64,000 nt of DNA from Neoroseomonas soli (GTDB lineage: Bacteria; Pseudomonadota; Alphaproteobacteria; Acetobacterales; Acetobacteraceae), in assembly GCF_018129065.1 (NCBI RefSeq), contig NZ_JAAEDM010000017.1:1-64000 (forward strand), read 5' to 3'. The notes under the pieces are model-generated. The model saw only the letters and a list, made by a program, of their open reading frames with translations. It did not search any database and had not been told where the DNA came from. Positions 57,504 to 61,046 of this stretch are shown here, piece after piece. The first letter of the stretch is position 1, and each line of letters opens with the position of its first letter. A program made the translations under genes and the position numbers.

Positions 57504-58765
57504 ACACGCCCCGCGACCACGGCCCCGCACGGGACGAGACCCCGGGCGGGCCGAAGCGCGCGAAGGACATCATCGTCATCGGGGCAGGCCCGGCGGGCCT
57601 GATGGCGGCGGAGGCGGCGGCGGAGGCCGGCGCCTCCGTGACCGTGCTGGACCACATGCCCTCACCCGCGCGCAAGCTGCTGATCGCCGGGCGCGGCGGG
57701 CTGAACCTGACGCATTCGGAGCCCTTGGAGCGGTTCCTCACCCGCTACCGCGCGGCGCAGGCAAGGCTGGATCCGTTCATCCGCGCCTTCCCGCCGGAGG
57801 CGCTGATCGCCTGGTGCGAGGGGCTGGGGCAGGAGACCTTCGTCGGCACCTCCGGGCGCGTCTTCCCGAAGGCGATGAAGGCCTCGCCGCTGCTGCGCGC
57901 GTGGCTGGCGCGGCTGGCCGCGCTCGGCGTGCAACTGCGCGGGCGGCATCGCTGGGGCGGCTTCACCGGCGACGGCGCGCTGCGCTTCGCGGCGCCCGAG
58001 GGCGAGGTCGTGCTGCACCCGCAGGCGACGGTGCTGGCACTCGGCGGCGCCTCCTGGCCCAGGCTGGGATCGGACGGCGCGTGGCCGGGTCTGCTGACGG
58101 GCTGCGAGGTCACGCCGCTGCGTCCCGCCAACATGGGCTTCGCGGTCGCCTGGTCGGAGCACCTGCGCGCGCGCTTCGCGGGCACGCCGCTCAAGCGCAT
58201 CGCACTGACCGTCGGTGATGCCACCGTCCGCGGCGAAGCGGTCATCACGGAGCAGGGCATCGAAGGTGGCGCGATCTATGCGCTCTCCGCCCCGCTGCGG
58301 GACGCGATCGCCGCGCAGGGCCATGCGACGCTGCACCTGGACCTGCGCCCGGACATCGCCCTGCCGGAACTGGCGCGACGCCTGGCGGGAAGGCCCGCGG
58401 CGCTCTCGCTCTCCAACCACCTGCGGCGTGCGGGCGGGCTGTCGCCGGTCGCGGTCGCGCTGGTGCAGGAAGTGCTGCACGGAGGCGCGGCGCGGGACGA
58501 CATCGCAGCGCTGGTCAAGGCGGTGCCGCTGCGACTGGCGGCCCCCTTCCCCATCGCGCGCGCCATCTCCTCGGCCGGCGGGCTCGCTTGGTCCGAGGTG
58601 GACGAAGCGCTGATGCTGCATCGCCACCCCGGCGTCTTCGCCTGCGGCGAGATGCTCGACTGGGAAGCCCCGACGGGCGGCTACCTGCTGCAGGCCTGCT
58701 TCGCGACGGGCCACGCGGCGGGGCGCGCAGCGGCATCCTGGGCGGTCAACCACCCGCGGCGCTGA
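57500..58765 (+). CDS. BaiN/YhiN-like flavoprotein (TIGR03862-type), CTG start
   Basis: 421 aa if translation begins at CTG 57500, overlapping the VOC stop (CTGA). The first in-frame ATG (57602) would remove the FAD-binding motif DIIVIGAGPAGLMAAEAAAEAGASV, and no GTG or TTG lies in frame between, so a CTG start fits the coupled style of this operon. The rest has the typical features of the family: GRGGLNLTHSEPLERF, ALGGASWPRLGSDG, and the final CGEMLDWEAPTGGYLLQACFATGHAAG. These FAD enzymes are thought to act on unsaturated or aromatic substrates; the reaction is unknown. Its 3' end overlaps the convergent hydroxylase gene by 20 bp. Confidence 0.8.
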   Translation: MNTPRDHGPARDETPGGPKRAKDIIVIGAGPAGLMAAEAAAEAGASVTVLDHMPSPARKLLIAGRGGLNLTHSEPLERFLTRYRAAQARLDPFIRAFPPEALIAWCEGLGQETFVGTSGRVFPKAMKASPLLRAWLARLAALGVQLRGRHRWGGFTGDGALRFAAPEGEVVLHPQATVLALGGASWPRLGSDGAWPGLLTGCEVTPLRPANMGFAVAWSEHLRARFAGTPLKRIALTVGDATVRGEAVITEQGIEGGAIYALSAPLRDAIAAQGHATLHLDLRPDIALPELARRLAGRPAALSLSNHLRRAGGLSPVAVALVQEVLHGGAARDDIAALVKAVPLRLAAPFPIARAISSAGGLAWSEVDEALMLHRHPGVFACGEMLDWEAPTGGYLLQACFATGHAAGRAAASWAVNHPRR

Positions 58766-61046
58766 TCGCGCGCCACAGCTTCTCCGGCGTCGCCGGCATG
58801 TCGGGCGCGGCGGCGCCGACCTGGGCCAAGGCGTCGGCGACGGCGTTCATCACCACCTGAGGCGCCGCGATGGCACCCGCCTGCCCGACGCCCTTCGCGC
58901 CCAGCGGGTTCGCCGCCGTCGGCGTGCCTTCCAGCAGCACATCGAGGTCCGGCAGGTCGTCCGCGCGCGGCAAGGCGTAGTCCATGAGCGAGCCGGTCAG
59001 GATCTGGCCGGACCCGGTGTCGTAGACCACGTCCTCGAGCAGCGCCTGGCCGATGCCCTGGGCGAGCCCGCCCTGCACCTGCCCCGCCGTCAGCAGCGGG
59101 TTCACGAGACGGCCGTAGTCGTCCACGGCGGTGTAGCGGCGCAGCCGGGCTGTACCGGTCTCGCGGTCGATCTCCACCTCCGCCGCCTGGCAGCCATTGG
59201 GGAAGGTGACGAGGTCGTTGGCGTTGAAGGCTTCCGCGAAGAGGCCGGGCTCCATGCCTTCCGGCAGGCTGGCCGGGTCCTCGGCGGCGCGAGCGATGCC
59301 GGGCAGATCCACGAAGCGGTCGGTGCCGCGCACGGTGAAGCGGCCCTCGGCGAAGTCGAGCGCAGCGGGGTCCGCCTGCAGCAGATGCGCGGCGATGGTG
59401 CGGGCCTTGGCGAGCAAAGCCTCCGCGGCCAGCACCAGCGCATGCCCGCCCATGTGCAGCGAGCGCGCGCCGCCATGGCCATGGCCGTTCGCGATCAGGT
59501 CGGTGTCGGCCTGGCGGTAGTGCACCTGCTCCACCGCCAGGCCGAGCCGATCGGCGGCGACCTGCGCGAAGGACGTCTCATGCCCCTGCCCGTTCGAATG
59601 GGAACCGACGACGAAGGTCGCGCTGCCATCCGGCGCGACGCGGATGTTCGCCCATTCGCCCGGTGCGCCGCGCGCCGTTTCCAGGAAGCAGGCGACACCG
59701 CGGCCGAGCAGCGCGCCGCGCGCGGCAGCCTCGGCGCGTCGTGCTCGGAAGCCGGCAGCGTCGGAGGCACGCGCCAGCACATCGAGGTTCGCGGCGAAGC
59801 GGCCGCCATCCACCGCCATGCCCATCGCCGTGCGGTGCGGCGCATCCGGCAGCATGTTGAGCGCGCGCAGCGCCGCGGGATCACGGCCCGTCTCGCGTGC
59901 GGCGGCATCCACGAGGCGTTCGATGATGTAGTTCGCCTCCGGCTTGCCGGCACCGCGATAGGCGTCGATCGGGACCGTGTTGGTGAAGGCCCCGCGCACC
60001 GTCAGGTGCATGGACGGGATGGCATAAACGCCGCCCATCGCCGTGCTGAAGGCGTTGGTGGGGCAATGCGGGCCGACTGCGGAGAGATAGGCGCCCATGT
60101 CGGCGACGGTTTCGACATCGAGGCCGAGGAACCGCCCCCCCGCGTCCAATGCCAGCCGCGCGGTCGCACGCAGGTCGCGGCCATGGACCGAGGCGGCGAA
60201 TTCCTCGCTGGCACCGGCCACCCAGCGCACCGGGCGGCCGAGGCGGCGTGCCGCGGCCAGCGCCACCACGTAGTCCGGGAAGAGCAGGTTCTTCAGCCCG
60301 AAGCCGCCGCCGACATCGGGGCAGACCAGATGGAAGGCGTCCTCCGGCAAGCCGAAGACGGTGGCGAGCTGACGCCGCACGCCATGCACGCCCATGCCGG
60401 TGAAGACCAGTTCGAAACGGCCATCGACAAAGCGCGCCAGGCAGGCGCGCGGTTCGAGCGGCAAGGCGTGGACGCGGTTGTTGAACAGATCGATCGACAC
60501 CACGCGCGCCGCCCGCGCGAAGGCGGCAACGTTGGCGGTGCGGTCGCCCTTCTCGAAGCGGAAGACCTCATTGCCGGGGGCTTCCGGCCAGATCTGCGGG
60601 GCGCCGGGGGCAAGCGCCGCGGCGCCGTCCACGACAGCGGGCAGGGCGTCGTAATCGACGTCGATCAGTTCCGCGGCGTCGCGCGCGGCGGCTTCGCTCT
60701 CCGCCACCACGAAGGCGACGGGCTGGCCGACGTGCCGCACGCGGCCGCGCGCCAGCACCGGGCGCTCGGGCACGACCATGGGCTTCACCGAGGCGAGCAC
60801 GCTGGTGCAGGGCAGCGGGCGGATGCCGTCCGCGTCCAATTCCGCGCTCGTCAGCACGGCGACGACGCCGGGAGCCGCGCGCGCCGCCGCGACATCCAGG
60901 GCGCGGATCTCGGCATGCGCGTGCGGGGAACGCAGCATCACGCCGTGCAGGGCGCCGGGCGCCTCCAGGTCGGCCACGTAGCGGCCGTGGCCGGTCAGGA
61001 AGCGCGCATCCTCGAAGCGCCGCAGGGACTGTCCGCTATAGGTCAC
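58746..61046 (-). CDS. Orphan molybdenum-hydroxylase large subunit (xanthine dehydrogenase family) with catalytic Glu replaced by Gln
   Basis: 766 aa. CoxL/XDH-type molybdopterin-binding subunit: GGGFGLK at 246-252, the form-II-like loop AYRGAGK at 362-368, and YTAVDDYGRLVNPLL. In characterised members the C-terminal motif GVGE provides the general-base glutamate; here it reads GVGQ, with Gln722 encoded by CAG (58883-58881). No FAD (CoxM) or [2Fe-2S] (CoxS) subunit gene is adjacent; the neighbour is an M20 amidohydrolase with an ATGA overlap. It may have another chemistry, lost activity, or rely on subunits encoded elsewhere. Confidence 0.88.
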   Translation of the reverse strand: MTYSGQSLRRFEDARFLTGHGRYVADLEAPGALHGVMLRSPHAHAEIRALDVAAARAAPGVVAVLTSAELDADGIRPLPCTSVLASVKPMVVPERPVLARGRVRHVGQPVAFVVAESEAAARDAAELIDVDYDALPAVVDGAAALAPGAPQIWPEAPGNEVFRFEKGDRTANVAAFARAARVVSIDLFNNRVHALPLEPRACLARFVDGRFELVFTGMGVHGVRRQLATVFGLPEDAFHLVCPDVGGGFGLKNLLFPDYVVALAAARRLGRPVRWVAGASEEFAASVHGRDLRATARLALDAGGRFLGLDVETVADMGAYLSAVGPHCPTNAFSTAMGGVYAIPSMHLTVRGAFTNTVPIDAYRGAGKPEANYIIERLVDAAARETGRDPAALRALNMLPDAPHRTAMGMAVDGGRFAANLDVLARASDAAGFRARRAEAAARGALLGRGVACFLETARGAPGEWANIRVAPDGSATFVVGSHSNGQGHETSFAQVAADRLGLAVEQVHYRQADTDLIANGHGHGGARSLHMGGHALVLAAEALLAKARTIAAHLLQADPAALDFAEGRFTVRGTDRFVDLPGIARAAEDPASLPEGMEPGLFAEAFNANDLVTFPNGCQAAEVEIDRETGTARLRRYTAVDDYGRLVNPLLTAGQVQGGLAQGIGQALLEDVVYDTGSGQILTGSLMDYALPRADDLPDLDVLLEGTPTAANPLGAKGVGQAGAIAAPQVVMNAVADALAQVGAAAPDMPATPEKLWRAISAAGG

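Follow-up and report, generated by a model that had tools for sequence, protein, structure and literature searches.

The window, a 64,000-nucleotide stretch of a contig from Neoroseomonas soli, carries on its reverse strand an open reading frame at 58746..61046 that starts with GTG and runs without stop codons over 766 residues. The encoded protein is annotated here as a molybdenum-hydroxylase large subunit of a GxGQ type. The MoCoBD_1, MoCoBD_2 and Ald_Xan_dh_C domains all score above their Pfam gathering cut-offs, and the cofactor motifs GGGFG (residues 246-250, 60297..60311, reverse strand), AYRG(AG) and GQGH(E) are retained. An AF2 model of the protein (pLDDT 90.2, pTM 0.90) is predicted to have the xanthine-oxidase (molybdenum-hydroxylase) family fold, with the large subunits of QOR, CODH and XDH as its top structural matches over approximately the whole length. 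The best of these is QorL (1t3q), with a Z-score of 45.8 over 757 residues, followed by CODH with about 45 and XDH with 42.3. The protein nevertheless scores well below the NCBIfam equivalog cut-offs of all known members, reaching at best 534 bits against a cut-off of 790 for the glyceraldehyde dehydrogenase alpha subunit (NF041018), and 516.8 bits against 991 for CO dehydrogenase (TIGR02416). Because dN/dS is 0.13 and 0.18 against its two closest homologues, the gene is judged to be under purifying selection; the ratio was read for these two pairs only, farther pairs being saturated in GC-rich DNA.

The reading frame stands in an operon with the order MFS transporter, CoA-transferase subunits A and B, DSBA-like protein, M20-like hydrolase and large subunit, all window coordinates of which refer to the reverse strand. 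The adjoining gene (61043..62644) encodes an M20-like amidohydrolase, a name that is tentative as its matches stay below curated cut-offs. It is preceded by a DSBA-fold (HCCA-isomerase/FrnE-like) protein (62687..63343, Pfam PF01323), which is also linked in near relatives, and by subunit B of a 3-oxoacid CoA-transferase (63303..63932), which exceeds the TIGR02428 cut-off. CoA-transferase subunit A and the MFS transporter follow subunit B past the edge of the window. The neighbourhood genes were taken from a simple GC-based ORF picker whose output includes shadow ORFs, and the homology-supported neighbours alone were used. The original prediction described the large-subunit gene as coupled to the M20 gene, and at this locus its start codon indeed overlaps the M20-like stop by 4 bp (61043-61046). 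However, the M20 linkage was seen in only 6 of the genomes inspected, and the idea of a dedicated M20 partnership throughout the group was rejected. The CoA-transferase and DSBA-like genes are linked somewhat more widely, and other members have an Ldh_2 dehydrogenase, a ThDP enzyme, a proline racemase, an FAD oxidase, an M81 peptidase or an amidohydrolase as neighbours. These genes point to catabolism, but no single substrate is indicated because they vary between members. On the other side of the large-subunit gene lies a convergent gene for an HI0933/TIGR03862-type flavoprotein (57602-58765); it covers the last 20 bp of the large-subunit gene, and the two genes stay paired in the closest relatives (L143, L051). 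The region 51431-57503 of the window, adjoining the large-subunit operon, is a catabolic island with genes for two TctC-type receptors, two Amidohydro_2 proteins (4-sulfomuconolactone-hydrolase-like), a CaiB-type CoA-transferase and a glyoxalase-fold protein.

Residue 722 of the large subunit is Gln, encoded by CAG at 58881..58883 on the reverse strand. In HMMER alignments with CoxL (8uem), QOR (1t3q), CODH (1ffu and 1n5w) and 6-HPON dehydrogenase (7dqx), this residue is aligned with the Glu of GxGE, in the column of Glu1261 of bovine xanthine oxidase and of Glu763 of Oligotropha CODH (1n5w, counted along the alignment). The codon and the alignments with solved structures bear out the replacement of the catalytic Glu by Gln that had been read from the DNA, and in these alignments the catalytic Glu maps nowhere else. 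A misregistered alignment was rejected, the GAKGxGQAG block being free of gaps against all five structures. QorL acts in complex with small and medium subunits. It keeps the catalytic Glu (GGIKGMGES), in contrast to the protein described here, and Glu is also found in all five large-subunit paralogues of the same genome that align at this position. The Glu of GxGE is described as the active-site base (PMC6334162), and in mouse AOX1 its mutation to Gln (E1265Q) gave a protein with 60% Moco, near-normal iron and undetectable activity on all substrates tried (PMC2671166). This is the same change at the same position, but it is artificial, single and inactivating, whereas the one described here arose naturally, is fixed and comes with further changes.

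Homologues with at least 55% identity occur in 39 of 150 genomes of the same taxonomic family, with Gln in all those whose residue was read, whereas the next identity band (up to about 53%) has Glu throughout. Gln is present in 58 of the 58 readable subfamily members and Glu in 73 of the 73 sequences sampled from neighbouring branches. Since Gln is invariant across dozens of independent genomes, chance, a sequencing error, a frameshift or a single stray mutation can be ruled out as its origin. The Gln proteins form one clade in a 137-sequence tree, with an SH-aLRT support of 100, which remains unchanged, again with a support of 100, after removal of the 17 columns that distinguish the group. 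The clade with common neighbours that had been proposed as a check was thus recovered as a clade, but its catabolic neighbour genes differ from member to member. Pattern and homology searches extend the Gln form over Acetobacteraceae, Bosea, Acuticoccus and several further alphaproteobacterial families. By sequence, the Gln-type genes form a distinct subfamily (GxGQ/AYRGAGK) near form-II CoxL, a previously unnamed branch. A search of the literature available without subscription gave no relevant match for a named natural Gln variant or for shared S/M modules, which is weak evidence, and an earlier description is possible. A second, diverged Gln-type copy (59%) is present in a congeneric genome (G104, L144:8001-10283), and the subfamily therefore has paralogues.

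The loss of Glu is not an isolated change. When 58 Gln-type rows were set against 19 orphan Glu-type and 54 coxSM-linked Glu-type rows, I253N, R368K, A457T, G459R, H512Q, T524H, Y525G, S527A and E557Q proved to be fixed in the subfamily alongside Q722. The full set of residues that are fixed or nearly so in the Gln group (N253, K368, F454, T457, R459, N485, Q512, H524, G525, A527, Q557 and Q722) is rare or absent in the coxSM-linked group, and four of these residues (R459, H524, Q557 and Q722) are lacking, or almost so, in the orphan Glu-type rows as well. Asn253 (60288..60290; this and the following codons on the reverse strand) replaces an Ile found in 52 of 54 coxSM-linked relatives and lies after GGGFGxK, which we take to be the place of the substrate-binding Glu in XDH (E802 in the bovine, E232 in the Rhodobacter enzyme). 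The AYRGAGK motif (residues 362-368, 59943..59963) has a subfamily-invariant Lys368 for the Arg of AYRGAGR, and Arg459 (59670..59672) stands where all 54 linked relatives have Gly. The GTYGSRS segment, presumably cofactor binding as in XDH structures, has become GHGGARS. Here His524 (59475..59477), a candidate new polar group, takes the place of a Thr present in 54/54 linked and 16/17 orphan Glu-type sequences, and Ala527 (59466..59468) that of a Ser present in all 54 linked relatives. Gln557 (59376..59378) replaces a Glu that is found in all linked and orphan Glu-type sequences, a second acid-to-amide change. Furthermore, the column of CODH Gln240 (1n5w alignment), which is occupied by Met218 (60393..60395) in this protein, is Met or Ala in 19/57 Gln-type rows, whereas Gln is invariant there in both Glu groups. 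The initial description of the rest of the cofactor site as intact therefore holds for GGGFG and AYRGAG, but not for AYRGAGK, which is derived from AYRGAGR, nor for several further fixed residues that have been altered. The altered GTYGSRS segment could also mean weaker cofactor binding instead of new chemistry.

No FeS or FAD subunit adjoins the large-subunit gene, as had been noted from the sequence. The search was aimed at CoxS and CoxM, and around 48 GxGQ loci (47 of the subfamily and one separate protein of genome G360) none was found at E<1e-3 in approximately 727 kb of flanking DNA. The gene is in this sense an orphan, but this status is not peculiar to it, as Glu-type orphans without nearby CoxS/CoxM are common in the same genomes and occur in Azospirillum, Thalassobaculum and other relatives. 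The loss of adjacent CoxS/CoxM and the loss of Glu are therefore separate events. The coxSM-linked sequences form one clade in the tree. Two Glu-type orphans with no CoxS/CoxM nearby are encoded in the genome of N. soli itself (G000:C72:10746-13049, L003, L205; G000:C120:1929-4211, L004, L206). A look for CoxS elsewhere in this genome, as had been suggested, yielded five genes, all five of which adjoin other large subunits, and an unpaired CoxS/CoxM was thereby rejected. A CoxS is present somewhere in 28 of the 28 genomes with a Gln-type gene that were tested, and FeS subunits are outnumbered by large subunits in G077 (3 vs 7), G141 (2 vs 9) and G038 (2 vs 8). The last of these genomes contains a coxS-coxM pair free of a large subunit (L199:6417-7680, contig 16), the CoxS of which shares 81% identity with the one from the coxSLM operon in the genome of the window, while the matching standard coxL is solitary on contig 13 (L200). 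This separation onto two contigs suggests that FeS/FAD subunits can act in trans and be common to several large subunits. A single universal S/M donor operon was rejected at the E 1e-200 limit, since G077, G026 and G144 have no form-II paralogue above it.

Among known systems, the form II CoxL proteins, putative CO-dehydrogenase-like large subunits of coxSLM operons, share 45-50% identity, the same domains and AYRGAG with the Gln-type protein (for example, G000:C2:132521 of the same genome). Form II CoxL is defined by AYRGAGR and a coxSLM operon (PMC13203968), and its members have Glu at the catalytic position, GTYGSRS and adjacent coxS and coxM genes. The protein described here lacks these features, with Lys368 for Arg and neither coxS nor coxM. 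The form I Mo-Cu CoxL proteins (1n5w, 8uem) have the fold and overall alignment in common with it. They are, however, defined by the AYXCSFR motif and a coxMSL operon (PMC13203968), and differ by a Cys-containing AYRCSFR-type loop and Glu763, whereas the present protein has AYRGAGK, no coxMS and a score below the TIGR02416 cut-off. The Glu-type orphan CoxL-like subunits resemble it in having a form-II-like sequence and no CoxS/CoxM nearby, but they retain Glu, nearly all have Thr524 and Arg368, and they occupy separate branches of the tree.

The original prediction left a choice between a different mechanism and a repurposed protein, and a monophyletic, conserved Gln subfamily with correlated active-site changes supports it. 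Because Glu is always Gln, other conserved residues have changed with it and electron-transfer partner genes are not found nearby, the subfamily probably does its chemistry differently. The reading that is tentatively favoured, held with slightly less than even confidence, is a repurposed Moco-type catabolic enzyme without a classical base, whose electron partners are shared in trans or not needed. Such an enzyme would still bind the molybdenum cofactor and serve in catabolism, and its reaction would start without Glu-assisted deprotonation of Mo-OH. Gln722 would most likely hydrogen-bond the Mo-bound oxygen or the substrate, and any base would have to come from elsewhere, possibly the invariant His524, which is a guess, or the substrate itself. 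Any electrons that leave the enzyme might pass to a CoxS-CoxM pair whose genes lie elsewhere and which would serve several orphan large subunits in trans. That the exchange of Glu for Gln marks a non-redox or substrate-assisted Mo reaction, for which both base-assisted hydroxylation and dedicated electron-transfer subunits were given up, is a bolder proposal and seems rather unlikely.

Several other explanations have to be weighed against the repurposed catabolic enzyme. The strict lack of CoxS/CoxM across all loci examined, the fixed loss of the base together with the E557Q acid-to-amide change and the relaxed Gln218, and the isomerase, racemase and CoA-transferase neighbours would all suit a Mo enzyme without redox function. 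Its Mo would serve as Lewis acid or carrier of Mo-OH, and the reaction, a hydration, an isomerisation or a transhydroxylation, would require neither the base Glu nor FeS/FAD partners. This is considered unlikely, as every tested genome has a CoxS somewhere and orphan status need not mean a non-redox reaction, given that Glu-type orphans without their own CoxS/CoxM exist as well. Equally doubtful is a role without catalysis, in which the protein would be a scaffold that binds the cofactor, a regulator, or a decoy large subunit able to join CoxS/CoxM and to modulate other enzymes. The lost base, the inactivity of the corresponding mouse AOX1 mutant (PMC2671166) and the Gln240-equivalent missing in a third of the members agree with it. 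However, the newly fixed N253, K368, R459, H524, Q557 and Q722 suggest a selected new site and not decay, and the cofactor motifs are retained in genes that lie within catabolic operons.

An ordinary form-II CoxL-type hydroxylase with shared CoxS/CoxM, in which the Gln substitution has little effect, would fit the overall fold and the degree of identity to form-II CoxL-type proteins. It is nonetheless improbable, because all other branches sampled retain Glu, bar one distant protein, because it is essential in a characterised enzyme, as the mouse AOX1 mutant demonstrates (PMC2671166), and because the correlated substitutions would be left without explanation. The chance of a pseudogene, a sequencing error or a mis-alignment is negligible in view of the invariant Gln in tens of genomes, the low dN/dS and the open frames of the aligned members.

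Across the family, the GxGE Glu is considered essential, and a natural, widespread and internally consistent set of Gln proteins therefore offers a direct test of whether the base is dispensable and a way to learn what Mo chemistry is possible without it. It also calls for caution in annotating Gln-type genes as xanthine or CO dehydrogenases. That large subunits are more numerous than FeS subunits suggests modular enzymes that draw on common electron-transfer partners. Outside the subfamily, a distant large subunit of approximately 40% identity in G360 (L181:7200-9473), without CoxS/CoxM nearby, combines GAGQ with AYRGAGR and, by its place on the tree, is apparently a second, independent origin of the Glu-to-Gln change.
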